A DNA stretch of 36,593 bases, from positions 1-36,593 of the forward strand of contig JAGLHE010000084.1 of the NCBI GenBank assembly GCA_023143685.1. The letters are read 5' to 3'. How positions within the stretch are numbered: position 1 is the stretch's first letter; the number at the start of each line of letters is the position of its first letter. The notes beneath the pieces were generated by a model. The model did no database searches. It was not told the origin of the DNA and was given only the letters and a program-made list of their open reading frames with translations. Origin of the DNA: Candidatus Omnitrophota bacterium (GTDB taxonomy: Bacteria > Omnitrophota > Gorgyraeia > Zapsychrales > JANLHA01). Shown here piece after piece: positions 1 to 36,593 of the stretch. Position numbers and translations under genes: made by a program.

Positions 1-129
1 TTTTCGCTTAGCCTTTTTAGAATTAAATTCTTCAGGGCCTAAAATACCCGCTGTTGGCCCAATAGAATTTAATTGCGTCGCCAGTTTATAATACGTCTCA
101 ATTATTCTATTAACCGCAACACGACTGTA
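1..129 (-). other. C-terminal tail after the LOG domain, lysine-rich at the window edge
   Basis: After the LOG fold the sequence continues as a helix (NRIIETYYKLATQLNSIG) and then a Gly/Pro segment ending GPEEFNSKKAKRK at the edge. No stop is visible. A short basic tail would be a natural protein end, so the true stop may lie just beyond base 1, but further domains cannot be excluded. Confidence 0.5.
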
Positions 130-3100
130 ACCTTCTGCTTGATTTTCACCTAAAAGTCTTGCTTTTTTAGCATAAGACAAGACTTCATCAATAGAGTCTG
201 CCAACACGACTAACTCCTCTAATGGTTTTTGAAAATCCCCTCTCTTTTCTCCATCTTTCAGCCAGTTATAAATTTCTCCATAAAACTTTTTGTCGTATAA
301 AATAACAGGCCCGCTCTTAAAAGGCTGTTTGTCCTTTATCACCACAACTTCAAACAATTCATCCAGTGTTCCAAACCCGCCCGGCATACAAATAAAGACT
401 TGGGATAATCGAATAAAGGCAAGCTTCCGAGGGAAGAAATATTTAAATGTAACCGGTATACTGATATACGGGTTGCCTGATTGCTCATTTGGCAACTTAA
501 TCAATAACCCAATGGATGGTGTGCCTTCCAGGAAAGCACCTTTATTCGCTGCTTCCATAATTCCAGGGCCGCCGCCGCTCACAATAGCAAAACCAACGCG
601 TGCAAGAGCCCTTGAGACTTCCACTGTTTTCTTGTAATAACGATGTCCTGGATCCGTGCGCGCAGAGCCAAAAACAGTAGCTGCCTGGCCTCCGGTTATA
701 CGAATCAACCGGTTCATCAACCTCATCTCGCGAAGAGATGATCGCATAAAACCATAACTCAATATCGGTGAAAACAGCCGCAAGTAACTTGCATTTTCAC
801 CTTCATCTGTGTTTATTTTCTTACTTCCGCTCTCAGATAATGGTTCAACGGTATTCCTGTCTAGGTCCAAATAATACATACTTGACCAACAATACTCATG
901 AAAACTTGCTTTAACTTTTTGCTTAAATTTTTCACGCACAAATTTTCTGCCAACAAACAAGATATTTCTTCCTTTCAAGCAGGCATAATGAATTTTCTCT
1001 TTTCCTTTAAGATCAGCATATCGAATATAGAAAATCGGCCTGACTCTCTGCCCTTTTTCAAGATGTTTAGCTTGTTCCTCGTCAAAAATCTGCACCGCTA
1101 TCTGGAAAATATTTTCTTGCAGTGTTTTTAATTGCACTTCCGAAATCTGATGACTTTCAAATGCTTTTATGAACGCAAACTCAAGTCGATACGCAATTTT
1201 TGTTAACCGTCTGATATTTTTAAACCGATAATGAGGAAAAGACAGAGCTAACATACTATAAGTAAACCCTCCCCACATCGGTAGAAGAACCCACAATGAA
1301 GACCAAGACCAAACACAATCAAACGAAATATGCGGATATTTTCGATATTGGAAATACGCTATTAAAGCTAGTCGCATAATTCCGCCCGTAAACCAAAACG
1401 GAATACTCGCGATCCCGCCTAACGCGGAATACCCGGCAATAACGCCGCCGCCGATTGTTATCACACATCCACTATATTTAATAATTTCAGAAGCGAATTT
1501 AATTTTAACGAAAGCCCATTTTAACTGATTATATGCATCGCGGCATTCTACAGAAACCGAGGCCTCATGCTTCGTAGCAAAGTTAAGAAGTTTTGTAATA
1601 TCTCGGTGAGAATAAAGACGTAACCGTTTCATCATCCGAACAGTCTTTCGGAATAATCGATAAATACGGAATTGAACAACTTCCAAATGGTTTAATATAG
1701 GGAAAGCAGAGCCTTTAGAAAGGAAAACAAGGACTGGTGCGGGATCAAAATTATCTTTTTCTGAAAGTATATAATATTGATTAAAGAATGCGCCTTTGCT
1801 GTACGTTAGCGGACCGGCACGCAAAAGGCCTGACTTAACAGCATTTTTTAAACGTTGATTTAACCTGTCAGCTTTCTTTTTGCGGAAAACAGAAGCATTA
1901 AAACTCTCAATATACTTAACAACAGGATGATTCTTTTGAATTTTTCTAAACTGTTCAATTTGCCCTGATGTAACTACATCCATAACTTCCTTTTGAGCCC
2001 GTTCTTCAGAAGCCCCCGGCTTTTTCCAAACAACAGCTTGATCATTCATCGCACTGTGCTTTACAGGCGAACTGCTTTTTGTCGGTTCAAAAACAGGGTT
2101 TGAGGAGTTTTCCTGGCTTTCCGCAAGAACCTGCCTGAAGATCCCTTGCGTTTTGCCGGCTGAGAAATCAACATGCTGTTCTTGTTGATACCGTCGAATT
2201 TCCATTTTTCTTAATGTTACATTATCTTTTCTGACCAAACCTCTTTCACGGGCAGCCGCAACCAATACTTTATAAAAAACTCGTTTAACTTTTTCGGGTA
2301 TAGCTTCTGACCTTGCCATCAATTCCGGGACAAACGAAACTATTGTTTCAAAAATTATTTTTCGTATAAATTCTCTGCTGCTAAAATCAAACTCTTCCAG
2401 GTTCTGAATACGGTCGGCAATCTTGATGATTTGCGCGGCAAACAGGATGCATTCTTTTATTTCCCTTTCATCCTGAGGCAACAACTGCTTAATCCATTTA
2501 GATTTCCCTGTTAACAATTGGTTCAAATACGCAAATTCCCGGACATGCCGATTAAAATAAAATCCCGGAGGAGCCTTGCTTAAAAGAAGAACCATATGAT
2601 ATATACAACTCCCGAATTCCTTTTGAATAACAAGAGGATCAATAAAGGTGTCTTCAACAACGTCGTGCAAGAGGGCTGCTAACAAAATATTAAAGGCCCG
2701 CATATTAAATCGTTCTAATAAAATTAACGCGACTTCAATAGGATGAACAATGTACGGCCTGCGGTCTTGCCTGTGCTCTCCCGCATAAGCTAAAACAACA
2801 AATCTCAATGCCTTTTTTAACCGTTCTTCTTCTTTCTTTGAAATATTGAAATTTTCTTTGATTTTTCTTATAAACTCATCAATTTTTTCTTTAATAATTC
2901 TCTTATCTTCCCGAACATCCTTAATAAACGATCCCAGGTTCATTTCAGCATCTAATTGTTTAGAACCTTTCGATACGATGACCGCGTTTACATACTCTAC
3001 AAGTTGTCCAATACTATCAATGTTCCACGTTGTGAGCGTATCTGTAATTCTATCCCTGTTAGCCGCGCGGTCTGCTAATTGAACTAACAGCAAGGAATGC

Positions 3101-6100
3101 AACAACCGTGGTGTAGAAATATCTTCTAAAAGCTGTCCAAAATTCTCAAAACTATATTCCCGATACATCATTTTAAATAAGCTGTCATGATGGCGAACAA
3201 GGACAACAACATCCTTAATATCTTGTTTACTATAACCAATCTTTTTCATTGTTCTTTTGGCAATACGGGCAGACTGTTCCGGGTGTTCCTTAATAGAATC
3301 TGTCTTCATCTTGCCTGCCTCATGAAAAAGGATAGCCAGCCTTACTAACCTCAAGTCAATTTCTTTGCTGTATTTGGAAAAAACGTTTTTCAAGGTATCC
3401 TGTATTTTTTTCCTCTCAAGAGAAACAGGCCTCTTCTTTACATCAACTAAAAGGACATCTTCCATTAAAAACTCCAGAGCCTTTAAAACATGGACCACTC
3501 TGGTATCCTGATATCCAGGGGTGAACGGGTCGACAAACCTTTTTAATTTTTTCCAAAACGGCAATAATTCTTCCCATTCACCACTTTGAAGAGCAGGCCC
3601 CATCTCTCTGCGCGTTGAAAGCACCTGATCTAATCGTTTCCATCCTGTTTTTTGAACTGGAGATGAACTGTTTTCTTCTTGAGATCCTGTGCTTCTTTTA
3701 AGCTTTACAATATCAACCTCTTGTTCTCCAAAATGTTTCCGTGCTTTGTGCTGAACCCTGTCCAACTTGTCTTCAATCTCATCTCTCTTCTCTAAGCGTT
3801 CCGGGGACATATCGCTCAAAAGTTCAAGAACATTATGGAACAGGGGTTGCCACGTCATAAGATTAAAATGCCTCAGCAACCATTTCATCTCTGCACAAAA
3901 ATCAAGAACATCATCAAACCTTATTTCTTCAAAAGATGCAAATCTTGACCTATCTTTATAGTCAATCCATTTAACACTCACGCCATCCCATCCGAACACA
4001 ACATTTCTTAATCCAACATCACCGTGAGCAACACCTTTTCCGTACAAGAAAGACAGCCCTTTAATCATCTGACTAATTATTTTTATAACAAAGACTTGTC
4101 TTAACGCGGGTACAGCAATCGCCATGTTATCGAATAAATCTTTCCCGCTAACCCCGTCAACATATTCAACTGTTTGATATTCCATAGCGCCTGGCACATC
4201 AGTTATGGCAATTTTATCAACACGCCATATCTGCGCGACATTTGGATGCTGTTCACCCTGAAGCATCTCCCTGAATTTTTCCGCCTCCTTATTGTTCAAC
4301 GATAAAGACCTTTTCGGAATTTTTAAAGCAACTATCTTCCGGTCAACGACATCATGTGCTTTATAAACATAAGCATTGCTGCCGCGGAAACTAATCGGAT
4401 CCTTGATCACAAGGCCCTTTTCAGCAAACATCAATCCTAATTTATAGGGAATAATATCGTCCATATAAACATTTTGATTTTGAACCATTTCAATTACCGG
4501 GCTGCTGGATTGTTCATTAAACAAGAATGTTTCTCTCTTGCCCAGGTCAACACCCATAATGACCATCTTGTCTTGAGGTAATTGCGAAATAATACGCCGT
4601 ACAATTTCATGAGACTTTCGCCCTTCATAAATAAGATTGTTTCGTTTTTTAGACAATAAAACCTGTATAGTCTTTAATAACTCGGGATGATAGCTGTATC
4701 TCTGGAAAACACTTCCTGCAAATCTACCACTCAATGTATCCCCTCTTATCCTCGATACAAACTTGCGGCCATGTTTTTTGCGAACAGCTTGTTGGATCAA
4801 TTTTGCCAAAGGTTCTTTTCCGCAGGATTCCGGGCCATCCAGAACAACGAGCAACCGCTGTCCGCTGTTTCCTGAAACAGCTAAATCTGATACAGACTGG
4901 ATAATTTCTTCCCACCATGAAGAATGTTGCGGCCGCCATTTCCAAACAATTTGTTTATTTCCGGAGAACCAAACCGGTGAAGAAGAGTTTTTGTGCTCTT
5001 TGGCAATATTTACAAACAAAGCCTGAGGATTCGTCCTCGGAAGATGAGCAAGATACGCCTCAACCAGATCGTGGTTTCTGTTTCGCAACGATGCTTCAAA
5101 AATCCGGGAAAGTATATTATTAACATCCCTGTCAATTACCCTTTTAAGATTTCCGTTTATTTTTGCGCCTAAAAATTTCTTTAATACCGGGACATTCACG
5201 GTTTTTGCCTCGTTACAAACAATACCGACATACTCTTCCCTCTTATGTTGAGGAAGAGCCATCCAGCTCTTTATCGTATAAACAATCGCCGAACCATGAG
5301 GCGTAATGTTGTCGCGTAATATTCCCTTAATTTTATTGTTATTCATAAGGTCCTGAACTGTCTTATGTAAATCAAATGTTTGAATTTTATACGGCGCCTT
5401 CTTTTGAAAACGCATAATTTCTTTTAAAAGCTTTTTCTTAGAAATATTCCTTTCCGCAAACCAATGGTATGACCTGAACACTTCCGTATAGGCACTTAAG
5501 AAATCAAGAAGCATAAATGTTTCGAGCAGCTGAAGAACCTTATATTTATTAACATAAATCTCTTTTGGTCCTTTTGAAACATACGGCAACTCTTTATAAA
5601 GCGGATCTGTAAAAATCAAAGATGGTGAATGGTGGTACCGCACAAGCAGCAACACGACTTTCGACTCTTTGACAATTCTTCTACGCATTAATTCCCCGAT
5701 TATTCTTATCGAATACTCTGGATGCACTCGGACAGAACCAATCTCTTCTGAGTTAAGCCTGCGCGGTGCATTAACAAGCACATTAATATCGGGGACAATC
5801 TTTCCTATATCATGAAGGGCGGCCGCTCTTTGAAGAATAAATTGTTCACCCACAGAATGCCCGAAAATACCCTGTGATGCCCGGGCTAATTTCACAACAA
5901 TATCAGCATGCATCCGCGTAGGCACTGCGACATCCGGATACAAATCAAGCAAGCCGTTACCTTTATTTTGATTCCTCAACTCACGGACTTTTTCAAACGG
6001 ACACAACTCAAAAAGAGCCCTGCCCCCACCATACTTTGGATCAATCGGTGAACTGCTGCTATCTCCGGCTATTTCCTTCATGCGATCCAGCCCTTTTTCA

Positions 6101-30100: not shown

Positions 30101-33100
30101 TTCAGCACCTGTGATGTATTCGCGATATCAAAATAGGTCAACGGCAAAGTAACTTTTGTCCCATCTGATTTTGTATAAGGAACATGAAGCCCATTGTAAT
30201 CATGTACTGTTGTCTGTTCGAGGATCTTCCCAGATACAGGTCGACTAATCGTCTTACCCCCATCTTCAGCAAAATACGTTGTACTAATATACGGTCTATT
30301 TCGATGATGTACATCCTTCTGTTCATACCATGTAAATTTATCGCGCTCCGCATCCGTTAACTTTAAAGTAATAATCCCACCTTGAAAGTCAACAACTCTT
30401 GATTTTGTGAACGGAACTTCAACCGTTTCATCCCCAATGGTAATTTGAACAACCGTTTCCCCTTCTGCGGCGATGCGCGGGTATTTGCCGCTATAGGCAT
30501 ATCTTGTTACGCGCTTAACTTCTCCAACGATATCCCTTTCTTCATCCTCAATCTCTTCTCTTAAATCAACCTCCACGCTAGGCAATCCTTGTGCGGAAAT
30601 CTCTTCATCAACAATACGGCCGCCATTTAAGATCTCTATACGCGCACGTAGTAATTTACCGTCCTGCCAAGTGTACGGACTGTACTCAAACTCTTGTAGC
30701 CATTCGTTGTGCCATGGCGCGTATTTGTATCCTTTTCCAGAAACCTCACGACCGCTACGATCATAGATCGGAGCGTATAAACGATCAATGCTGTAATCCT
30801 TGTCTTTCTCTTTCTCAAATAATGTCTTTTGATAAATCAGCTTGCCGTGGGCACTGCGGATGGTTTCAGTTTTCTCCTGATAATTATTCTTATCATATTC
30901 TGCCCATCTTGTTGCATTGTCTCTCCATGTCTTGGTTGCGCTGTCATAAGTCGCATACGCTGTCTCAGAAACCGTTTTACTGTTTTGGCCTATCTTTTTT
31001 TCTTGTTTTATCTCAGCGATAGTCTCATCCGTGTTATAAATAAAGGTTGTTACCCATTGATATCCTTCGTCATCTGTGCTGATGGACATAACCGGATTCT
31101 TCCAGCGGTAATCCCAAACATATATTGTTCTCTTATTACCCTTCGTATGATCAATCTCCTCAGCCTTTAACTCACGTGTTACAGCGTTATAAGAAAGTGT
31201 CTTAACCGTTGTTAAATGCTCGCCTGTGTCTTCAGAATAAATATAAGTCGCATAAGGAATGCGCCCATAATAGAACTTGTCACTGTAAAGCGGAATAACC
31301 CTTGTTGCAAAATCATATTTACGGCCACAGGTCCCTGCAAATTTATCTCTGTAGAACTCTGACATCTTGCGGCCGGCATTAGCATTATCAAATGTTATGC
31401 GGCTTGTTAAGTCATGAGCCATATCTGTCTGTTCTATCGGCGTCTTCCATCCATAAATCTCAAGGTCTTTGGCTATATGGTGAACTAAGGACTTATTCTT
31501 TACTCGCAGTTTTCCTTGTTTCGGAGTTTCGGTCGTCCCATCATTTTCATGAACCTTCGAGGAACGGAAGATACCGTTGGCATCATATACAGGTTTTGTA
31601 ATATAAAGATCATCAGATCTATGAATATACCCGCCATAAAGATCATAGGGACCATACGTATCAACAGAAACCCCTCCTCCAACATAATCCAATCGCACGT
31701 GTTTCTCGATTTCATCATCATCCATCAGTGATTCAACTTCTTCTCTATTAAAAGGATTAATAACGTACTGCCAATCAACAAACGTCTTTTCTGTTGGCTG
31801 ACTTTGTTTTGCAGTTTTAATATGATCAAGCAGGTCTGATTTTGTCATAATCTGTTTACTTGGTAATCCCTTCGGGTTAAAATGAGTTACTGTTCTGTCA
31901 AGCAGCTGTTTCCCGTCATAGATTCTTTCTGTAACTGACTTACCCGTAAAAGAATACTTCCATAAACCTTTTTCGTTATAAGCATTGACTTCCGGACCGC
32001 TGTTTGGATTAACCCTTTCAACTAATGTGTATTTACCAACTGGGAAGATGATTGTTGCCAAAACCTCTTCTTCTTGCCCATCCCCATCCGCATCCATTGT
32101 GACCTGAATATCAGCATATCCTTTATTGTTGGCAATAAAGCGATCGCGAGCCTCAAGGCTTGTGACTTTTGTTAAAAGATAATTAACAGTCTTAGAATCG
32201 CGGATAATGTTCCCCTGATGATCCGTAATCGGTGCGTCTCTAATAATCTTGGTACCATCTTTAATGATTCCTGTAATAACCGCCGCACCATTTCGGAAAT
32301 CATATATTATTCCATCCTGCGCAAAGCTTTCATTTCCGGTCAGGGCAGCTGCCATCCGTCTTGCATTGACAGCACCGGCTGCAATTAATTCTCTATATTC
32401 CTTAACTTCTTCATCTGACGACATCATGATAACTTGATGAACTCTTTTTTCCGCATCAATATAAACAAATTCTTGGCCGTTAATCTTATCAAGATAAACC
32501 AACTCTTCCGACAGTTGATTAAGGCCAGCCAGCTTCACTTTATCTTCATCCGTAAAGATGACCCTCTTTCTTAATAAACTTTCTTCCCGTTTGGTTAATT
32601 CGTCTTTAGCGTTTTTCCGTACTAACTCTGCTTGCCTTGCGATTAAAGCTGCCTTGCTTCTTAACCGTTCTCTTTCATCCAACAAGGCAGCTAATTCTTC
32701 CTTCTTCTCACGTTCTTGTTTTCCGAGGACAACCTCACCCAAAGTGTCTTCTTTTGTTATTGGTGTCTTTGGTTTCTCAATATGAGAAAGGGTTGTTGTC
32801 AAATCATCTATCTCAACCTTCAATGTCCAAGGATTATCCCCGGCGATAACGCTGATGTCATATTCCGCAATCGATGCTAAGGCATATTTCCCTAACGGCG
32901 TATACCAGCCAAACCCTGTATAAATCCCGCCCTTAGTTGCCTGCGGTAAACTCGGCTCATCGCCTTTCATTCTGATCAATTCATCACGATAGAAAACAGC
33001 ATGATCCTTAGCATATTTAGCTGCCTCGGTCATGCCCTTCTTCGAGAAAAAGGTTGCTGTCTGTCGATAAACATTTACCATCTCCGCCGTAACCTCTGGG

Positions 33101-36100
33101 AACCCAAGATCAATGCCGCCTTTTCTCTGTGCTCTTCTTTCCTGAGGAGCTAAATCAAACAATGTATACTCTTCACCTCTATAATCCACAATAACGCTGA
33201 ATGCTTTTTCAACCCTTTTTAAATACGCCAAGAATTGTGTTGGGCTCATATCGAATTCCTTCATAAACCTTTCAGGCCCTAACGCGAGAACCCAACGGCC
33301 CTGGGCATCAGCAGACGGCGCAAGATCATCTGTCCCCGCACGAAGCAACCCATTATTCCACATATCACCTTTCTTAACCCAAGCCAAAATATCGTTCGCG
33401 ACATCTCTGTAAGATGTCAAATCCTTACCGCCAAACCAAGATGAAATCATTTCTCCAAACGTTTGTGACTGTTTATGCGTACCAAGATAATCCCCATAAT
33501 TAGACAAGAACGCATAAATAATCGCGTTCGGCTCTGTATATTTACGTACTTTATCTTTGTCAAATTCCGATTTTGGATTTAATCTAAGCCCTCCGGACCC
33601 ATATTCATCATGCCTGTCTACTAACCAATCAGCCATTGGCTTAAGCATTTTATGATATGCCTTCTTGCCTGTTATATATTCATAGAACATAATTTCCTGC
33701 CCTAGAGAAGCCGTAACGCCAATATCACCATTTCCGACATTTGCTCGATTATATGCGCGGTAACTCTTCGGGATTCCGTCAAATTTACCAACTTTCGTTA
33801 CCGACAAATAATTCTCATAATGAATATTCAATAATTGTTCGGCTTCTTTAATAGCTGCAATTCGTTGTGCCTCCTTAACATCATTACCGCCTATTTTTTC
33901 TATCTCTTTACCAAGCTGATCTGCCTTGAGGAGATGTCGGGCAATGGATCTTGAATGATCCCAAGAATACGAGTTATCATAATCTCCTTGTTTTTGATAA
34001 TCATGTGACTTTGGCGCCCCAGACTCAAGATTTTGTTCATACGTCCCTCCTTGCGGGAATATACGATGGACATATCCGCCTTCTTTCTTGGATGCTTCGT
34101 AATCTTCACGATTCTTAATAGTCCGTTCCTTGATCGCCTGAAAATATTCCAACCCCTTCTGTGTTAACATGACCATTCTTTGCTTATATTCACCTGAATG
34201 CTGCTGTTCGGAAACAAGATACACAGGGATATTTACGGTTTCTTTCCCAATGCCTCGTGTCTTTGCAACCTCGATACTCAAAACACCAGGAACCTGCGGA
34301 AGGCCGAGGAAGGCATCTTTTGAATAAGTCACTAAGTCATCCCTAAAGATTTTTTCGTCAATGTCATAAGCAAAGGCCTCGTTCTCTTCATGCATTTTAA
34401 TGAGTTTTTTAGCAAGATCCCACTGAGAATAAAGGCTATATGAAAAATCCAGGAAGGAAAGATTTACGCGGATCTTACTAGGACTATTGATAAACACCTT
34501 ATCAGCTGGCCCTTCACTAAACATGGCATTCGCCACAGATTTTAGATCAACCGAAGCGCCCCCATAGCTAAGAATCTTTTCAATGAAAGAAGCCTCTCCG
34601 CCAAGCTCATTAATTGGCACAAAAGACAATCCTTCCCCTGTGACGGCTAATGATATCGTCTGGCCTATATTAAGTTCTCCTGTGATTGATATATAACGTT
34701 GCTGAAGGATGTCGACCCATTCTTTTTCTTTTGGCTGATAGTAATAAGCTGTTTCTTGCCCGCCTGGAAGCTTTGTGCCGTCTGTAACAAATTCTTGATC
34801 CTGATTGACAAAAAATCCGCCAAAAGACATGCCTTTGGAAAGCAACCCTAAGTAAAAATCAAATGTTATCGCGGACTTGCGTTTTTCAACGAAGGAATAA
34901 AGTTTTTCTCTTTCTCTTTCTGTTAACAAGCCCTTAATGTTCTTTCCGTTTCTTTCGTATTCTTTTCTTTCTTCATTTGATAAACTTACGAACTTCTTGG
35001 CGACATTACCAAAGATCTCTGCCTCTTCTTTTTCATTAAGTTTTTCAGGAACATGATTAAGCGGATTATAGATAATATCAAATAACGTTCTTCCAATGAG
35101 ATTTAACGGTATCCCCAAACCATTTATGTTGAGCGCAATATTTGCAGGGAGAAGAATTCCTTCCAAGATCATCATCTTATCCAAACGATCCTTATTGGCG
35201 AGCAACGCCTGCTTTTCTCGTTTTTGGAGTTCTTCCAAGAACTCTCCACGCATATAATCTAATTTGTCAAAATTGTTCCCGAGAATAATCTCCCCACGGG
35301 ATATCATCGGCTTATACTCTGTTAGTGTGTCTTTTTCAACCCCAAGAGCTTGAGCCATTTGCTCCTTATCAAGATAAAGATCCAAAACGGCGCTCCCTCT
35401 GTCTGTACTATCCAACTGGATTTCTTCGTCTAGTCTCGGGCTAAACACTTTTGTTATCTGATCCGCAATAGCCGGCCACCATTTCAAACTGGCACCTTTT
35501 TGTTTATCGCTCTCGGGTGTATCGCCATATTTTCTCCCCTTAACATATAAAAGTTCTTGACGTGCATACGGTTTATCTTTTTTGTCAGGAACGATTTCAT
35601 GAGAAAGAATAAACCTCGCCAATTTAGTAATATTGCCCCAGTCATCCCTACCCTCAGCTTCAACCCCAACAAAGACGCTTTTCGCCTCTGGAGTATCTTC
35701 GTCTGAAGGAAGGACGATGCTACGGATCATCGGATTCCAGTGATTCTCTATTAAGAATCTTTGTGTATTTCTATTCTCAATATTCAAAATATAAGCAAGG
35801 TCTTTCATTAGATTACGGTTAGCAACCTGTGCCTCAACCATCGCTTCTCTCGCTTCCGCAGCTAAAAGACCCGGTTCAAGAATACCTTCCTTAGCCACCC
35901 CGTCTTCTTCCCACTCAACAAAAGTATAAAAATGTTTATATTTCTTAAGATACTCTTTGATCTCTAGAGGACTGATATCTTCAAAATCACTAATCTTAGA
36001 AAGGTCTACGGCTGCTATGTCATCTAACGGCGCCTTCTTGGACGTAAACTTAACTGTTGAATTCTCATAAGCGAAAGACAAGAAAGATTTCTCGTCGTTG

Positions 36101-36593
36101 ACCGGACCTAATACAGGGAATCGTGCTTCAGGAGCATGCAAGTTCTTTGAATCAGTTGAACCGATAATATATGTTTCCTGTTTTTCTCCTAAATTATTAA
36201 GCTCTATCAAATTCGCTCTTTCATTATCTCTCGCTATTATTCGCCTATTATGTCCCGGAAGGTCTCCGTCTATCTTTTTAGATGTTGGAATCGCTGGGGC
36301 AAACTTTTTATCAAGCTCATCAATAATCGTCTGATCATGCGAAGCGTGTCTTTGATCTAACCCAGACTGTTTCGCTTTTTCTTCAGACAGAGGAATAAAT
36401 TTAATCTCTTTTTCAATATCAAAGATTTGCTGTGATCCTGTTGTTTGGGTTGTTTGGATTACTGCCGCGTCAAATTCCGAACCAAAGAACAAGCTGAATT
36501 TGTATTGACCGTCTACTACAAAATCTTTAGCAGACTTCTCTGATACGAATAACCAGTCTGTCCTTAATGTATTTTTGTTCATCTCATCAGCAA
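1..36593 (-). CDS. Internal fragment of one giant multidomain membrane protein (at least 12,197 aa; start and stop outside window)
   Basis: Seen: the minus-strand frame whose codons occupy plus positions 3n+1 to 3n+3 has no stop over the whole window. I checked every in-frame triplet for TTA, CTA and TCA. Residue 1 of the fragment is the codon at 36589-36591; bases 36592-36593 are an incomplete codon. Recognisable domains (six-hairpin-like, GT2-like, CBM48, GT5, HATPase, kinase, HD, LOG) occur in this same frame from one end to the other, so no hidden frameshift is needed. At about 110 Da per residue the visible part alone is about 1.3 MDa. Known: such sizes occur in Candidatus Omnitrophota. 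Inferred: a polytopic inner-membrane protein with an outward N-terminal part and a cytoplasmic, linker-rich C-terminal part. The fragment ends at low coordinates in a lysine-rich tail after the LOG domain, so the true C-terminus may be near. No ribosome binding site or promoter for the gene can be seen. Confidence 0.96.
130..704 (-). other. Protein domain: LOG/PpnN-type nucleotide monophosphate nucleosidase (Rossmann, TIGR00730-like)
   Basis: Seen: TVFGSARTDPGHRYYKKT (635-680), FAIVSGGGPGIMEAANKGA (535-590), then PSIGLLIKLPNEQ (485-530), VFICMPGGFGTLDELFEVV (340-395) and FYGEIYNWLKDG. The GSAR, GGGPGxMEA and PGGxGTxxE motifs are the complete signature of the LOG family, formerly called lysine-decarboxylase-like. 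The reaction is hydrolysis of a nucleoside 5'-monophosphate to base and ribose 5-phosphate. In plants and many bacteria this activates cytokinins; E. coli PpnN (YgdH) degrades purine nucleotides and responds to (p)ppGpp. The catalytic Glu of the PGG motif is present. It follows a (p)ppGpp-hydrolase-type domain by about 1.6 kb in the same chain. Confidence 0.9.
705..2061 (-). other. Protein region: basic helices with a hydrophobic, possibly membrane-inserted hairpin
   Basis: About 450 residues. The first half is basic (RLFRKTVRMMKRLRLYS near 1620-1670). At 1345-1495 the sequence is hydrophobic (CVITIGGGVIAGYSALGG, then FWFTGGIMRLALIAYF) and again at 1235-1310 (VWSWSSLWVLLPMWGG, YSMLAL), giving two or three possible membrane helices, far from the main membrane clusters. 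The rest is charged and strand-like (PIFYIRYADLKGKEKIHY near 1010-1060). Family unknown. If the helices are real, the C-terminus is tethered to the membrane too. Confidence 0.5.
2280..2850 (-). other. Protein domain: RelA/SpoT-type (p)ppGpp hydrolase HD domain, residues intact
   Basis: Seen: LRFVVLAYAGEHRQD (2765-2810), IVHPIEVALIL (2720-2755), ILLAALLHDVVEDT (2644-2685) and IIKIADRIQNL (2398-2430). These are the hydrolase signature elements of RelA/SpoT/Mesh1: His of HPxxVA, His-Asp (2662-2667), Glu-Asp of VxEDT (2650-2655) and Asp of K-x-ADR-x-x-N. No synthetase or TGS domain follows, so it resembles small alarmone hydrolases. Expected reaction: removal of the 3'-pyrophosphate from (p)ppGpp with Mn2+. 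An SSSPV linker lies downstream at 2062. Its context, with a second HD domain before and a LOG domain after, suggests nucleotide or alarmone handling. Confidence 0.8.
2960..3654 (-). other. Protein domain: HD-fold domain with His-Glu instead of His-Asp
   Basis: Seen: LVRLAILFHEAGKMKT (3301-3348), with His-Glu at 3319-3324 where His-Asp is expected, then KEHPEQSARIAKRTMKKIGYS (in part, 3240-3295), VVLVRHHDSLF (3175-3210) and LLLVQLADRAANRD (3050-3090). The order follows HD domains of CCA-adding enzymes and GlnD (LLHDIGK, H-x-x-x-A, LV-x-HH, L-x-x-AD). The Asp-to-Glu change affects a metal ligand, so catalysis may be lost or altered. It is placed directly N-terminal of a RelA/SpoT-type HD domain with intact residues. 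Confidence 0.65.
3670..4494 (-). other. Protein domain: Ser/Thr protein-kinase-like domain
   Basis: Seen: FRGSNAYVYKAHD (glycine-loop region, 4340-4395), IVALK with the ATP-binding Lys at 4321-4323, a Glu-rich helix (NKEAEKFREML) in the place of helix C, HPNVAQIWRV, a hinge-like YQTVEYVDG, then VAHGDVGLRNVVF with the catalytic Asp at 4018-4020 and the Asn at 4003-4005, and WIDYKD (Asp 3961-3963) in the place of DFG. His-Gly-Asp instead of His-Arg-Asp is usual in bacterial kinases and in aminoglycoside-kinase-like folds. The Gly of DFG is lost. I infer an active or near-active kinase; the substrate is unknown. Linkers border it at 4495 and 3655. Confidence 0.75.
4510..4971 (-). other. Protein domain: P-loop-like kinase or NTPase with altered Walker A
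   Basis: Seen: QRLLVVLDGPESCGKEPLAK (4803-4862). A hydrophobic strand ends in Gly-x4-Gly-Lys, which is a Walker A loop, but the following Ser/Thr is Glu. After it comes NLIYEGRKSHEIVRRII (4575-4625), then KMVIMGVDLG (4543-4575), a possible Walker B-like strand. The size (about 150 residues) and order resemble small nucleoside or polyphosphate kinases (polyphosphate kinase 2 has a related 'GxDxxGKxG' loop). The Glu substitution makes activity doubtful. It is bounded by SSSPV linkers at 4972 and 4495 and precedes a protein-kinase-like domain. Confidence 0.5.
4987..6426 (-). other. Protein domain: HD-GYP/HDIG-type phosphohydrolase-like domain
   Basis: A small helical piece (6061-6426) with an SSSSPI linker precedes the domain. 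Seen: GHSVGEQFILQRAAALHDIGK (in part, 5800-5865) with HD at 5806-5814, then VRVHPEYSIRI (about 5700-5735) and VRYHHSPSL (about 5610-5640). The order H, HD, H, HH is that of the HD-GYP subgroup, which hydrolyses cyclic di-GMP, but the GYP motif after HH is missing, so c-di-GMP specificity is not claimed. A long helical tail follows (5000-5560). It is the second of four HD-type domains in the C-terminal half. Confidence 0.65.
6442..7533 (-). other. Protein domain: unrecognised, mixed then all-helical (HEAT-like texture)
   Basis: About 360 residues between SSSPV linkers at 7534 and 6427. The first half has a helix IKEVLERKIVERGLTRVQASL and a strand YEVFVKRGEKRERVRIQV (about 7075-7130). The second half is helical pairs with repeat texture (FWPNAVNLLGKIARGKDRYL, AVEKENDLALREIWRLF, SEAPQRAVAAFKVVM; 6560-6860), consistent with HEAT or TPR-like arrays. 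No enzyme motif. Confidence 0.35.
7549..8631 (-). other. Protein region: low-conservation interdomain stretch with repeat-like DNA
   Basis: About 360 residues without a recognisable domain, with three linkers or variants (SASPI 8389, SSSPL 7792, SSSPV 7534) and short Val/Ser runs (VFVVSSSSVVN). Pieces at 8290-8400 and 8590-8630 look like translated intergenic repeats (described separately). The part at 8050-8260 is helical (AAQAAIILSIADELSDY), and the part at 7560-8040 looks disordered. This is the least protein-like stretch of the window. Confidence 0.45.
8290..8630 (-). repeat. Repeat-like DNA embedded in the coding frame
   Basis: Plus strand 8595-8630 has TCGAACCTCGTACTTCGTAC, a near-tandem of TCGTACTT units. 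Plus strand 8310-8340 has TTTAGTATTTCGTGTTTCGC followed by ATTTCGG, also near-tandem. Plus strand 8362-8390 has TCTCTCTTCGTTCGAGATGA. In frame they give TKYEVRGTKV, RNAKHEILNA and DVISNEERDL. From memory, sequences of exactly these types are dispersed intergenic repeats in several environmental bacterial genomes. Here they are read through as protein. Confidence 0.45.
8644..9884 (-). other. Protein domain: sensor-kinase-like helices and degenerate HATPase domain
   Basis: The first 600 bases are signalling helices. At 9256-9267 the sequence reads SKSCGTCV in the place where a phospho-accepting His would be expected, and no H-box is present. The ATPase part has an N-box-like helix IGLQAIIEKALNFTEKG, in which the invariant Asn is replaced, a G1 box VEDTSVGID (8839-8865; usual DTGIGI) and a G2 box WVGLDIAKLA (8740-8766; usual GLGL), then GGTIDVKS and IKFTVVLP. 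The overall fold is clear, but key residues are altered, so I infer a pseudo-kinase or a low-activity ATP-binding regulatory domain. It ends at SSPI 8632. Confidence 0.65.
9885..10499 (-). other. Protein domain: GAF-like sensory domain
   Basis: Seen: a helix with a GAF-type start (LRTTGQEEILLGLQNALEF, 10390-10450), a strand SLSVYVVQEKEDALRIK (10330-10380), a long Trp-rich middle (SLWPQWAPM, QNWWDYY) and a closing NKWFVIMMNRWPI strand with SSDEQDIIKSLLEPFIKM helix (9915-10010). The arrangement follows GAF domains, which bind small molecules or linear tetrapyrroles; the ligand is unknown. It precedes a kinase-type helix and a degenerate ATPase, the usual sensor-kinase order. Confidence 0.5.
10500..10869 (-). 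other. Protein region: coiled-coil signalling helix
   Basis: About 120 residues of charged helix with Leu/Ile/Met at heptad-like spacing (FVDKMEKDLEEIIARY, LKEQLYRETAESMLPTF, LYVKLKQLEDVDKLF). It leads directly into the GAF-like domain, as signalling helices in sensor kinases do. Confidence 0.5.
10870..12153 (-). other. Protein domain: unrecognised module, strand-rich then helical
   Basis: About 425 residues. It begins with a helix-strand part (ITSEFMASMSEKYRDVPVI). A strand-rich part follows (DIIFDRPVNSVIAEAILDP, KMTIHARQPGKFIFAPFIN, about 11420-11780), resembling an immunoglobulin-like sandwich. Then come basic helices (ILESFIYHRYRRVRLMF near 11110-11160) and a GVIRNGVKKLKKKQQG end. No enzyme motif is visible. 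It is bounded by the SSPV linker at 12154 on one side; no linker separates it from the following coiled coil. Confidence 0.35.
12180..12831 (-). other. Protein domain: HisKA-like H-box helix with long coiled coil
   Basis: Seen: IGELLHELKTPSLMSAALIS (12745-12803), with the sensor-kinase H-box His-Glu-Leu-Lys-Thr-Pro; the candidate phospho-accepting His is 12787-12789. It is followed by about 170 residues of charged helix (QLEEEARMKERDILSDLL and so on) ending in a Ser/Thr/Lys-rich tail with SSPA and SSPV linkers (12177-12154). In ordinary kinases the HATPase domain follows the H-box directly. Here the intact ATPase lies on the N-terminal side and a degenerate one lies 3.5 kb further on. Phosphotransfer from the upstream ATPase is possible but not shown. 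Confidence 0.6.
12847..13209 (-). other. Protein region: asparagine-rich linker and short helical hairpin
   Basis: Two SSPI linkers (13210 and 13153) are followed by an Asn/Gly/Ser-rich stretch (RQNSYNNGNNNGNTLSWN, about 13090-13145) and then charged helices (IVEILDRLEAYYLSRPEML, about 12960-13015). This is likely a flexible joint and a spacer between the ATPase and the H-box helix. Confidence 0.55.
13222..14265 (-). other. Protein domain: histidine-kinase-type ATPase (HATPase_c) with intact boxes, no H-box
   Basis: Seen: N-box helix AFSDVLRNSYQAYVE (13570-13620), G1 box RMRDYAGGIPEE (13468-13503), G2 box HGLGLGMHNI (13369-13401) and the closing GGTVDVKN...VTFILP strand pair (13270-13350). 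These are the ATP-binding boxes of GHKL sensor kinases and look functional. The 500 bases before it are helical (RRINSLLAKKGWAQG to FVDFVNQSAGG), but I see no H-box with the usual His-Glu-x-(Lys/Arg)-Thr-Pro. That motif appears instead at 12787 after this ATPase. A C7 tract (13682-13688 region) encodes the Gly-Gly of SAGGAGL. It is bordered by SSSPI (14266) and SSPI (13210). Confidence 0.8.
14345..15010 (-). other. Protein domain: HEAT-type helical repeats
   Basis: Seen: repeated helix pairs with the HEAT/PBS-lyase texture: LIPARVGLAIALAHMNDERAI (in part, 14880-14960), VGSVAAWALGKILDE (14630-14680), ARKFAVEALGYIGGDKAVALL (part, 14530-14590), LKDPVWVVRREAVLSLK (14460-14520) and DEHPEVRQAAKEALG (14370-14430). 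The D-P-x-x-x-V-R-x-x-A-x-x-x-L pattern is clear in the last two. Such arrays bind proteins. It links the glycogen synthase domain to the histidine-kinase-type ATPase, so it may act as a scaffold between metabolism and signalling parts (inference). A short strand-rich piece at 15010-15135 (EVNHARGKVKVSL) precedes it. Confidence 0.7.
15180..16800 (-). other. Protein domain: GT5 glycogen/starch synthase, apparently complete
   Basis: Seen in order: FGPIVKVGGAGDVMYEL (16726-16776, the ADP-glucose-binding KxGGxGDV motif), HAHDHHTALVPTYM (about 16350-16395), FTIHNIGYQGEYP (about 16275-16315), NTVSDTYAREI, GILNGIDFSVWNPATD (about 16000-16050), GVVSRVASQK, IPSDYEPSGLTQMHAMRYG (15493-15550) and TGGLADTV. 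All landmarks of GlgA are present in about 536 residues; stand-alone GlgA is about 480. Known reaction: transfer of glucose from ADP- or UDP-glucose to the non-reducing end of an alpha-1,4-glucan. The usual EPCGL is EPSGL here (Cys to Ser), otherwise catalytic residues look intact. It starts 10 codons after an SSPI linker (16831) with an internal Met-Val. A CBM48 domain lies upstream in the same chain. This is the most certain domain of the window. Confidence 0.92.
16948..18327 (-). other. Protein domain: HD-superfamily phosphohydrolase-like domain
   Basis: Seen: NALLHDIGKAKASG at 17710-17755, the HD metal-binding motif (His 17740-17742, Asp 17737-17739). It is preceded by a helix with a candidate first histidine (WAHTQMVLDAVQF, about 17875-17930) and followed by HLIYSVEMAAHIMPRL and HESKALLLNHAAI helices, the latter offering the next histidine. 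This is the usual order H...HD...H...H/D of HD domains. A small strand-rich tail (GTVVEIWGVPFKLSEHHW, about 16980-17040) closes the module before the SSPV linker at 16936. Known family activities are hydrolysis of cyclic or other nucleotides and phosphate esters; the substrate cannot be told. It sits directly N-terminal of the glycogen synthase domain. Confidence 0.65.
18343..18741 (-). other. Protein region: small helical module between linkers
   Basis: About 130 residues between SSSPI (18742) and SSSPV (18328). A short strand (IVAVPGRVVVDMNVVAID, about 18650-18710) is followed by amphipathic helices (LFNFLLELIERFLAALKKV, about 18530-18590). The strand resembles the phosphocarrier HPr/DAK-type 'PGR' turns only superficially. 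No family assigned. Confidence 0.3.
18760..19992 (-). other. Protein domain: GT-B-like glycosyltransferase fold (EarP-like appearance)
   Basis: About 400 residues between SSPV at 19993 and SSSPI at 18742. The N-terminal half starts with MDIYINFLYEGYGDITAAV (about 19895-19950), a strand-glycine-rich loop-helix as in GT-B transferases, followed by strands IRLVVIKDED and IVVVDAMDQ. The C-terminal half has IDVLFVYDP-type and VKMHLIAP strands, then SADLPVGVRGMYTLLDA and IVMGIPFVYE (about 19020-19090), the typical acceptor/donor loop of GT-B enzymes. The pattern, with a YGD motif early and a served-by-name 'SADL...GRG...GIPFVY' late, recalls EarP-type rhamnosyltransferases, but the match is weak. 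Donor and acceptor are unknown. Confidence 0.4.
20060..20358 (-). other. Protein domain: CBM48/AMPK-type glycogen-binding module
   Basis: Seen: MLFSLRAPPEGISEIVLTGD then FTNW, then a strand with a DDLWAVVVP segment, then YEFKFIICYENG, a WVNGP turn and NSLIVV (20065-20350). This is the early-set beta-sandwich of CBM48 and AMPK-beta carbohydrate-binding domains (V-x-L-x-GDF-x-x-W ... W-x-x-x-V ... Y-x-YKF-x-x-x-G ... DP ... NS-x-V). The Trp of the GDFxxW motif and the later Trp residues are present, so binding of alpha-1,4-glucan is plausible. It lies between the nucleotidyltransferase-like domain and the GT-B-like domain, 3 kb upstream of a glycogen synthase domain in the same chain, which makes a glycogen-docking role attractive (inference). 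Confidence 0.7.
20440..20967 (-). other. Protein domain: Pol-beta superfamily nucleotidyltransferase-like
   Basis: Seen: VVDGSLLGSVQMG followed by AGVASDIDMHVV (20683-20760). The G-S...x-S-D-I-D pattern is the signature of the nucleotidyltransferase fold (MNT, GlnD, CCA-adding and related), with the two metal-binding aspartates at 20701-20703 and 20695-20697. A preceding helix (MALTLMAHAILRQVQNEFG) is in the usual place. The third acidic residue cannot be placed with certainty. The family transfers NMP to proteins, antibiotics or RNA; the substrate here is unknown. GlnD-type proteins combine such a domain with HD domains, and HD domains do occur further along this chain. An SSSPV linker at 20968 starts the module, and a glycogen-binding domain follows. 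Confidence 0.6.
20985..21714 (-). other. Protein domain: unrecognised alpha/beta module between SSP linkers
   Basis: About 240 residues. The first half is strand-rich with many aromatic residues (LTFQYSDGYSAATQYYP, GWVVVMPKTGKPVNIV, about 21450-21590). The second half is alternating helix and strand (QIIHMIVNEVREVTLSC near 21160-21215). It is bounded by linkers at 21715 and 20968, which argues for an independent folding unit. I cannot name a family. Confidence 0.35.
21765..22515 (-). other. Protein region: basic helical segment after the last membrane helix
   Basis: About 250 residues rich in Lys and Arg (for example KKKAINYMRKIVRRAF near 22320-22360), as expected for the cytoplasmic flank of a membrane domain. 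A second half (22130-21790) has short helices spaced like small helix-turn-helix or degron-type modules (QMGLSRKAVRLLSDS, VDKRQIKNAYVPGDAG), but no family is assigned. It ends at the first SSPV linker. Confidence 0.4.
22530..23590 (-). other. Membrane cluster 2: about eleven transmembrane helices following the GT2-like domain
   Basis: Hydrophobic stretches run almost without break: LTQVVLLLMFYGMKPFVFV, MISIVILGIDFYAAYPFMML, MLFVGYMFLFS (23400-23560), WHFMAYVIRYVVVQVQF (23220-23275), LLLAYLLIGPFIPTGLFVF and LLWMSLAVAMLVYPYL (23050-23110), TIGVISMVTAGLVSG and GIFFILAGIYFTS (22860-22950), VIFSILFMIFISYQHFAI and IPIFFWMVL (22715-22800), VIVPVVGVLVAAYWFGYLW and IVPWAVMIPMGIWIV (22515-22620). A GKSDFVPT loop at 23185-23215 resembles the gating-loop region (GK-x-F-x-T) of GT2 synthases, which supports the GT2-like reading of the preceding domain. 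Confidence 0.8.
23590..24180 (-). other. Protein domain: GT2-like (cellulose-synthase-like) glycosyltransferase, divergent
   Basis: Seen: SPASFRIDGIAEMRPEAGFF (24035-24090), then ALAARISQPNVASITFPQ (about 23925-23970), like the GT2 Asp-x-Asp / P-x-VA-x-VQ-x-PQ segment. Next come a helical part, an AEDAVGG element (about 23745, in the place of the catalytic TED) and a LQDYYGNKFF segment (about 23570-23590, in the place of QxxRW), directly followed by membrane helices. This order is that of processive GT2 synthases such as cellulose or hyaluronan synthases and GT84-like proteins. The metal-binding second Asp and the exact QxxRW are not conserved, so activity is doubtful. Inferred role: synthesis or guiding of a surface polysaccharide through the adjoining helices. 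An alternative is a structural pseudo-transferase. Confidence 0.45.
24200..25739 (-). other. Protein region: charged helical segment between membrane cluster 1 and the GT2-like module
   Basis: About 510 residues, mainly amphipathic helices with many acidic residues (SLSEKQRDILMQQII near 25000) and several Trp residues. I do not recognise a fold. Its C-terminal quarter contains the 48-residue tandem duplication described separately. Its position between two membrane clusters suggests a cytoplasmic location. Confidence 0.4.
24355..24642 (-). repeat. Recent in-frame tandem duplication, two 144-bp copies (24355-24498 and 24499-24642)
   Basis: The two copies are identical at 141 of 144 positions by direct comparison. 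The unit is exactly 48 codons, so the frame is kept. Each copy encodes a helical unit containing ALEGVSDYD, then FRSxEHFLSLAYLNPAER and GDLTDEEK. All three base differences change the amino acid (Leu/Trp, Arg/Met and Tyr/His in the FRS-EHF part). The near identity means that the duplication is young. It lies in a helical cytoplasmic-type region next to the GT2-like module. Confidence 0.95.
25740..26770 (-). other. Membrane cluster 1: about eight transmembrane helices
   Basis: Hydrophobic segments: 26718-26770 (FSYVLAISGILFLGIL), 26640-26703 (LAVVFGSTPFALGLILWLL), 26344-26416 (EIILAVSVVMAGLFLSNVL), 26220-26340 (FMAFMVFIVPFFVQRVIEV), 26105-26165 (LWAVFFGLTFIFGLPYL), 26015-26085 (YYYLAGSITVVAGVLFP), 25850-25930 (LSAVIIVGLVVASIKLY) and 25742-25815 (AVVWTAVALLGLWIYVLSW). 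The exact number is uncertain by one or two. No transporter signature is visible. The cluster lies upstream of a GT2-like module that has its own membrane helices, so together they may form one polysaccharide-related membrane unit (inference). Confidence 0.75.
26830..28260 (-). other. Protein region: soluble helical segment between membrane helix 1 and the first membrane cluster
   Basis: About 475 residues, charged and mainly helical, with Lys-rich runs (RPRKYKKDSTGKKWDG near 27480-27530) and acidic helices (REEDREDEIIEE near 27345-27385). No family is recognised. By topology it should be cytoplasmic. It contains no SSP linkers. Confidence 0.4.
28282..28356 (-). other. Transmembrane helix 1
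   Basis: The stretch TIISVIFAVAVVVSLFAIP followed by RLISLIKALFVR is a clear membrane helix with a positive C-terminal flank. It separates the beta-rich N-terminal part from a soluble helical part. By the positive-inside rule the Arg/Lys-rich side after the helix should be cytoplasmic, which leaves everything N-terminal outside. This supports the proposed topology. Confidence 0.8.
28440..32460 (-). other. Protein region: long beta-rich stalk with YD/RHS-like character
   Basis: About 1,340 residues are dominated by alternating short strands with many Tyr-Asp, Asp-x-x-Gly and Tyr-x-Tyr elements, such as PVYDANGIFRSS (about 31560-31610), APIYDRSGREVSGKGY (30730-30780), VFDKQGRIKAVGNQYYYD (29620-29680) and VTRYAYSGKYP (about 30485-30510). 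This resembles YD/RHS repeat proteins and insecticidal Tc-type shells in texture, but I see no strict repeat period and no RHS core motif, so the family is not assigned. It ends just before the first transmembrane helix, so I infer an outward-facing stalk or shell. Alternatives are a large adhesin or a carbohydrate-binding beta-helix. A DxDxDG loop lies inside it at 32065-32094. Confidence 0.4.
32065..32094 (-). other. Calcium-binding type loop (DADGDGQEEE)
   Basis: The residues Asp-Ala-Asp-Gly-Asp-Gly-Gln-Glu-Glu-Glu form the DxDxDG core of EF-hand, dockerin or thrombospondin type-3 loops. Position 12 of a canonical EF hand (Glu) is not in place, so this is a calcium-loop-like site rather than a complete EF hand. 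It fits an extracytoplasmic beta-rich protein, where calcium often stiffens domains. Confidence 0.45.
32520..32725 (-). other. Protein region: highly charged helix, probable coiled coil
   Basis: About 70 residues of almost continuous Glu/Lys/Arg/Leu/Ala sequence (for example ALLDERERLRSKAALIA) with no glycine or proline run lie directly after the hairpin barrel and before the beta-rich region. The heptad-like spacing of Leu and Ala suggests a coiled-coil spacer or oligomerisation helix. Function unknown. Confidence 0.5.
32750..33990 (-). other. Protein domain: six-hairpin (alpha/alpha) glycosidase-like barrel
   Basis: Seen: the order of motifs follows a six-hairpin barrel. A YDNSYSWDHS-type opening lies at 33950-33990. 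Next come a glycine-rich NVGNGDIGVTAS turn with a Tyr-x3-Gly helix (YEYITGKKAY, about 33660-33690), a WLVDRHDEYGSGG hairpin, TEPNAIIYAF (about 33510-33535), LAPSADAQGRWVLALGPE (33270-33320), a later GGIDLGFPEVTAEMV helix, and a closing GWYTPLGKYALAS...GDNPW (32766-32850). This order matches the general scheme of predicted six-hairpin glycoside hydrolase and phosphorylase-like proteins (Asp-x-Ala opening, TEN-Asp-type helix, W-x-LALGPE, EGT-like helix, NPF end). Expected role: hydrolysis or binding of surface polysaccharide. Specificity and catalytic acids cannot be assigned by eye. It sits N-terminal of the first membrane helix, so an extracytoplasmic location is inferred. The length of about 410 residues fits such a barrel. 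Confidence 0.55.
34020..36591 (-). other. Protein region: uncharacterised N-terminal segment of the fragment
   Basis: I do not recognise a family here. The first 500 residues mix charged helices and short strands, with an aromatic-rich patch near 35440-35480 (KWWPAIADQ). A moderately hydrophobic stretch at 35050-35160 (LPANIALNINGLG and after) is too polar to call a membrane helix with confidence. From 34700 to 34200 the sequence is strand-rich (GELNIGQTISLAVTG), followed by charged helices leading into the hairpin barrel. It lies on the same side of the first membrane helix as that barrel, so I infer that it is extracytoplasmic. No SSP linkers occur here, unlike the C-terminal half. Confidence 0.4.

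Follow-up and report, generated by a model that had tools for sequence, protein, structure and literature searches.

The open frame and its genome

The window, which is the whole stretch of DNA analysed and at 36,593 bp the entire contig C312, comes from a MAG that totals 2.55 Mb over 328 contigs and is 89% complete. It is occupied by one open frame with three main divisions.

1..36591, minus strand: open frame, 12,197 codons long, an interior part of a giant gene
28357..36591, minus strand: soluble front part, aa 1-2745, with homology to stretches of further giant frames in the order
22618..28356, minus strand: membrane block, aa 2746-4658, with 14 helices predicted by hydropathy only
1..21762, minus strand: module chain with 22 SSP[VI] tags, aa 4944-12197

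All six frames of the window were checked. From 36591 to 1 on the minus strand, no stop was found in 12,197 codons, while the five remaining frames carry 501-1,245 stops each and no open run longer than 155 codons. At the lowest stop rate among these five frames, the chance of an open run of 12,197 codons is about 10^-222. The frame exits the contig at both ends, so the start and the stop both lie outside the window and the ends of the gene are missing. An earlier note, made from the letters alone, had proposed a piece of a giant gene, and this proposal is borne out by the absence of stops in a frame that runs off both ends. Stop reassignment was ruled out, as all three stops are in use by sampled ordinary ORFs (TAA 58, TAG 21 and TGA 16 at the ends of ORFs of at least 300 aa on sampled unmasked contigs), and the giant frames G009:C3 and G002:C5 terminate in TGA and TAG, respectively. 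Codon usage along the frame correlates with that of ordinary ORFs at r 0.84-0.94 per 2,000-codon block. No Rfam match for an RNA element was found in the window at gathering score.

That the locus consists of fused decaying genes or is an artefact of assembly, with no real giant protein behind it, is very unlikely. Such an origin would agree with a MAG of short contigs, with a 144-nt tandem duplication within the frame and with the strong divergence of the embedded gene copies, but it is opposed by 12,197 codons without a stop, by similar unbroken frames without N of up to 44,856 aa in other genomes, and by the retention of most active-site motifs examined. Separate internal starts are unsupported: ribosome-site-like starts within 60 codons after the tags described below number 0 of 22 against 1.0 expected, a weak test. 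Promoter-like and terminator-like sites, with both strands pooled, also stand at or slightly over the shuffled level (45 against 44.4 and 61 against 49.0 ± 6.8; 14 against 15.8 and 18 against 13.9, respectively).

Front part and membrane block

The first 4,000 residues gave no Pfam match at E 0.01, hydropathy predicts no helix in aa 1-2745, and a PDB sequence search with aa 801-2733 returned nothing at E 0.01. Matches to aa 1-3000 occur in 19 of 54 genomes, the window's own included, and in eleven other genomes the match falls within a frame of more than 3,000 aa, one of which (G035:C42) contains masked bases. One relative is a complete 5,041-aa ORF, whose start, judged by eye, resembles a Sec signal. 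Eight genomes of the order have free-standing relatives of about aa 928-1266 (about 32820-33810) in frames of 627-787 aa; this region belongs to no Pfam family.

A hydropathy window predicts 15 helices in the whole frame, 14 of them at aa 2746-4658, which by this measure gives the protein the many transmembrane helices of Omnitrophota giants; no helix is predicted at aa 4659-11708. The closest relative of the membrane part is G019:C120 of the same order, 44-50% identical by segment and letter for letter the same as JAHFFX010000128.1, 'Candidatus Omnitrophota bacterium isolate nzgw301', which supports the source in Omnitrophota that had been suggested from the letters. The homology with this relative stops at aa 4921, and the first tag stands at aa 4944. 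Within the membrane part, an in-frame tandem duplication of 144 nt (48 codons, 97% identical) lies at 24347-24634; most of it is absent from the aligned G019:C120, and it is either a recent duplication or an assembly effect. AlphaFold predictions for two single pieces of the window were uninformative, with mean pLDDT of 33.6 and 38.2.

The earlier note had raised the idea of a giant surface protein, but only approximately the first 4,900 residues resemble secreted or membrane-type giants of relatives. The domain list had looked odd for a surface giant because the other 7,250 residues form a chain of enzyme-like modules punctuated by tags.

Modules and tags in the window

The modules recognised in the chain and the first bases of the tags are as follows.

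17671..17772, minus strand: HDIG-type motif, aa 6274-6307, weak and under the curated cut-off
15205..16797, minus strand: complete GlgA (glycogen synthase) module, aa 6599-7129, with flanking tags at aa 6584 and 7149
14380..14598, minus strand: HEAT repeats, aa 7332-7404
13270..13623, minus strand: histidine-kinase-type ATPase, aa 7657-7774, with a tag 17 residues on
8659..8970, minus strand: second histidine-kinase-type ATPase, aa 9208-9311, with a tag 6 residues on
6442..7533, minus strand: unannotated module flanked by tags, aa 9687-10050, with a relative in the tagged frame G014:C51
3958..4386, minus strand: Ser/Thr kinase-like domain, aa 10736-10878
3061..3390, minus strand: HD domain, aa 11068-11177, with the motif altered to HE
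2371..2811, minus strand: RelA/SpoT hydrolase-type HD, aa 11261-11407
175..678, minus strand: LOG-type domain, aa 11972-12139, with the PGGFGTLDE motif retained
21762, 21732, 20982, 20004, 18756, 18342, 16947, 16842, 15147, 14280, 13221, minus strand: first bases of tag copies 1-11
13164, 12846, 12165, 8643, 7548, 6441, 6060, 4986, 4509, 3669, 2076, minus strand: first bases of tag copies 12-22

The complete GlgA module (TIGR02095 at 348.5 bits, with a cut-off of 328.45) thus shares one frame with histidine-kinase-type, kinase, HD and LOG modules, an assembly of several complete unrelated proteins as in a polyprotein. The three domains named in the earlier note, GlgA, the RelA/SpoT-type HD and LOG, are all present in this frame. 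The kinase, read by eye, carries DYK where DFG stands normally. The Pfam matches of the window include no peptidase domain, nor do those of the tagged relatives in the parts scanned; the front and end of the gene lie outside. A SecA-like helicase domain, reportedly seen in Omnitrophota giants by West-Roberts et al. in 2023, is absent from the Pfam matches of the window, in which the gene is incomplete.

The tag, which the earlier note does not mention, has the form S(2-4)P[VI], and its 22 copies between modules compare with 0.2 in shuffles and 0-2 for permuted motifs; in fact, an unsupervised 4-mer count of the window frame places SSSP and SSPV on top. In 62,464 aa from 195 ordinary ORFs of the same genome (26 unmasked of 40 sampled contigs), SSP[VI] does not occur and SSPL occurs twice. 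The tag codons are used as elsewhere in the frame and 21 of the 22 tag DNA words differ, which indicates that the peptide, not the DNA, is kept by selection. The tags lie in hydrophilic surroundings.

None of 172 tags from five giant frames falls inside a recognised domain, where 18-20 were expected on the assumption of uniform placement, although any linker motif would avoid domains (0 of 108 against 9.7-11.5, and 0 of 64 against 8.4). For this test, each place was represented by the best stretch of a single family, copied by hand, with overlapping families and further HD stretches omitted. It covered 12,197 of 12,197 aa in the window, 8,721 of 8,721 in G014:C51, 19,855 of 44,856 in G009:C3, 10,000 of 12,189 in G042:C51 and 29,998 of 33,383 in G002:C5; G036:C15 and G002:C3 stood outside it. 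Furthermore, of 58 ends of alignments between pairs of tagged frames (E ≤1e-10), 19 lie no more than 15 aa from a tag against 4.4 expected, with reciprocal pairs counted, so that the ends are not independent. The recurrence of a motif at module borders is again a feature of polyproteins. In G009, two adjacent modules align from one tag to the next with 38% identity. Window aa 9688-9957 match a G014 module with tags only at the window start and the G014 end, and some homologous stretches do not run tag to tag.

Tags in other giant frames of the order

Thirteen frames of at least 8,000 aa were compared, a non-random sample found via window queries and searches for GT5 and CoaE. A dominant short tag is present in seven of them, from six genomes, and the window shares the layout of a module chain punctuated by tags with giant frames from five further genomes in the order. 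The tag is SSPV/I in G042:C51, as in the window, SSPV/L/I in G014:C51 and SSPA/L in G036:C15. In G009:C3, a frame of 44,856 aa without N whose stop lies within the contig, 94 copies of SSP[VILMF] end chiefly in L, I, F and M. In G002:C5 (33,383 aa), the tag is N[AS][AS]V, present 72 times, with L after 58 copies, T before 38 and permuted forms found twice each; G002:C3 has a weaker form, present 13 times. The last tag position is almost always hydrophobic, and G002 belongs to the family of the window, so the tag varies within one family. No such tag was found in G022:C20, G051:C67, G016:C1, G011:C16, G033:C10 and the unmasked part of G035:C42, a frame whose length of 37,904 aa was discarded because 72 kb reads N. 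The frame in G022:C20, of 19,780 aa, apparently continues in other frames past two N gaps of 2 bases each, a break such as gap filling might produce.

The tags are rare in neighbouring and ordinary genes. The flank of G009:C3 holds no SSP tag in 23,489 aa and the ordinary ORFs of G009 hold two SSP[VI] and five SSP[VILMF] in 53,574 aa, of which both SSP[VI] and three of the five SSP[VILMF] fall in one frame of 6,146 aa. The ordinary ORFs of G014 hold no SSP[VI] and two SSP[VILMF] in 43,568 aa, and N[AS][AS]V is absent from the flank of G002:C5, a small control of 6,170 aa. A second frame of the giant type, 6,146 aa long and with three SSP[VILMF], occupies G009:C21 1-18438 and runs off the contig start.

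Distinct tag DNA words number 89 of 94 in G009, 51 of 58 in G002 and 18 of 33 in G014. A DNA repeat as the source of the tags was ruled out for the window, G009 and G002:C5, and is partly true for G014 and for one palindromic unit in G009. In G009:C3, this in-frame tag-carrying unit of about 26 aa (SDRHQLSSPMSG...) occurs at aa 19189, 19583, 19920, 24193 and 25032; four copies are alike at 70-74 of 78 bases and the fifth at 53-54 of 78, and the four are bounded by the inverted repeat GTGACAGGCACC/GGTGCCTGTCAC, which makes the unit palindromic and REP/MITE-like.

Some spreading of this kind would be expected if the tags were flexible Ser/Pro or Asn/Ala linkers without a reader, dispersed by drift and duplication, and the hydrophilic dips in which they sit would suit such linkers as well. 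This explanation is nevertheless quite improbable, since permuted motifs of the same composition are rare, almost all tag DNA words are distinct in three frames and the last position is so consistently hydrophobic. Still less credence is given to a modification mark, by Ser/Thr phosphorylation or by O- or N-glycosylation, with no cutting at the site. Serines are present in the SSP tags and Thr or Ser adjoins the core in most G002:C5 tags, but 25 of these 72 tags lack Ser/Thr across the core of four, and 6 of 72 still lack them when six residues are counted. N-glycosylation is disfavoured, as N-x-S is fitted by only 22 of the 72.

The G002 frames may themselves be connected. G002:C3 runs off the right contig end a little past a membrane block, a stretch of which is homologous to the window, and G002:C5 enters at the left end; with facing ends in matching orientation, the two are suspected to be one gene, possibly of at least 51,057 aa (17,674 + 33,383). 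The rule of one tag per genome would then rest on approximately one gene per genome.

Module content and second copies

Pfam matches in the tagged chains comprise glutamate dehydrogenase, CoaD-like, CoaE, carbamoyltransferase, radical SAM and histidine phosphatase domains; HD-GYP with GAF, ROK, AIR synthase-like, CofD, deaminase and HIT domains; and PEP-utilising, GNAT, methyltransferase and kinase domains, together with an RNase III-like domain under the cut-off. Wall-cutting domains of the SLT and Tse3-like types also lie within tagged chains. Judged by eye against general knowledge of the families, key motifs are retained in CoaE (P-loop, two copies), deaminase, HIT, histidine phosphatase, radical SAM, HD-GYP, GlgA and LOG, and altered in ROK (D to N), one window HD (HE) and the window kinase. 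The altered motifs of HD and ROK could mark partly dead modules.

Ordinary GlgA and CoaE genes are neighbours on contig C26 of the window's genome. What the giants carry of these two families is thus a diverged addition and not the sole copy; the extra copy is shown for GlgA in the window and for CoaE in relatives. The GT5 domain scores 150.6 bits in the giant against 263.5 in the ordinary copy. Within frames of more than 3,000 aa, GT5 is matched in at least 13 of 54 genomes, the window's included, and CoaE in 3 of 54, one of them weakly. A tree of GlgA comprised five embedded rows, of which that of G022 rests on a weak match, and seven free ones, two of them the same gene. In it the embedded copies group at 0.98 on very long branches, which makes common origin and long-branch attraction indistinguishable. 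The GlgA of the window is 28-31% identical to free copies against 23% to other embedded copies.

A chain possibly cut at its tags

On the available sequences, an even chance is given to a polyprotein that a protease acting in trans cuts at tags tuned to the lineage. One chain is encoded, as the open frame shows, and it would be transcribed and translated in one piece. The front part, by its homology and predicted helices, would be exported or anchored in the membrane. The rear part consists of enzyme and signalling modules on hydrophilic linkers, each linker with a short tag kept at the protein level. A protease co-adapted with the tag in each lineage would cut at these sites and free the modules, with the final hydrophobic residue presumably serving as the main specificity residue. 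The freed products would be diverged second versions of housekeeping and regulatory enzymes and would probably be active, because most key motifs examined are retained. The strict motif, selection at the level of the peptide, the position at borders and a key residue that varies with lineage are judged to fit cutting in trans better than passive linkers.

The residues [A/S]SP followed by V/I, L/F/M or A are taken to resemble P4-P1 of elastase-like or chymotrypsin-like sites, and HtrA proteases prefer V/I. The resemblance gives a lead, but no reader of the tags emerged from the protease domains searched: HtrA-type domains were found in 11 of 11 genomes checked, tagged or not. The window's MAG has three Trypsin_2 ORFs, at C68, C150 and C89, which are candidate proteases. 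S8 subtilisin gave no match in the tagged genomes G000, G002 and G042 (G000 and G042 being 88-89% complete), which rules it out as the sole reader of the tags.

The main rival to a cut polyprotein is an uncut chain, a membrane-tethered multi-enzyme necklace in which the tags are hinge or docking peptides for a partner such as a scaffold, a chaperone or an export factor. The same tag data would serve it, as a strict motif demands a binder as much as a protease, and the membrane block lies in the same chain. Yet the modules are enzymes unrelated to one another, in which no pathway order is evident, and they are duplicated and rearranged among giant frames; an uncut necklace is considered rather unlikely. 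The cut polyprotein can be carried further: with somewhat less than an even chance, bacteria of this order make the largest polyproteins known, in which a shadow set of tens of diverged metabolic and signalling enzymes in a chain of up to 45,000 residues or more would be cut into single enzymes by a protease co-evolved with a lineage tag of 4-6 residues, perhaps so that the whole set is made or delivered in one step, for example to a prey or host cell on contact.

The tags offer concrete sites for protein-end proteomics as well as a rule for splitting giants with little annotation into modules for separate study. If the chains are cut, they would be polyproteins of bacteria that far exceed those of viruses in size; if they are uncut, the tags would be a new kind of linker code.

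Comparison with known systems

Viral polyproteins share with the window one frame, many enzymes and a short recurrent border motif, and usually encode the protease in the same chain. The window differs in being chromosomal and bacterial, with relatives of up to 44,856 aa, in being known here from sequence, and in that no protease domain was found in the scanned parts of the chain, the gene's front and end lying outside. NRPS/PKS megasynthases are likewise very long bacterial multi-enzyme chains, but condensation, adenylation, carrier and ketosynthase domains are absent from the Pfam matches of the window. As far as the available extracts describe them, MARTX proteins carry several effector-like modules in an exported chain that are freed by cutting between modules; the window differs in that the Pfam matches of its incomplete gene include neither RTX repeats nor a cysteine protease domain, and its modules look like housekeeping and regulatory enzymes.

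The nearest known class is that of the Omnitrophota giant ORFs, reported in the available text of Seymour et al. 2023 (PMC10066038) at more than 20 kb in 77 of 116 Velamenicoccia genomes and including the LiM giant of 39,678 aa, peptides of which are up threefold in attached cells. With 36.6 kb open in an Omnitrophota genome, the window shares with them the phylum, the length above 20 kb, the membrane helices and the few annotated front domains. In that text, the giants are presented as surface, coat, adhesion or wall-degrading proteins, with no mention of tags or of a chain of cytosolic-type enzymes such as the window has. A preprint by West-Roberts et al. (2023) on giant Omnitrophota ORFs is cited in the available part of PMC12057145. 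Papers on such tags in Omnitrophota or giant proteins were absent from the literature matches listed, with preprints outside their scope. In conclusion, giant genes are already known in the phylum, and the novelty lies in the build: a soluble front, a block of 14 predicted helices and a tagged module chain of more than 7,000 residues.
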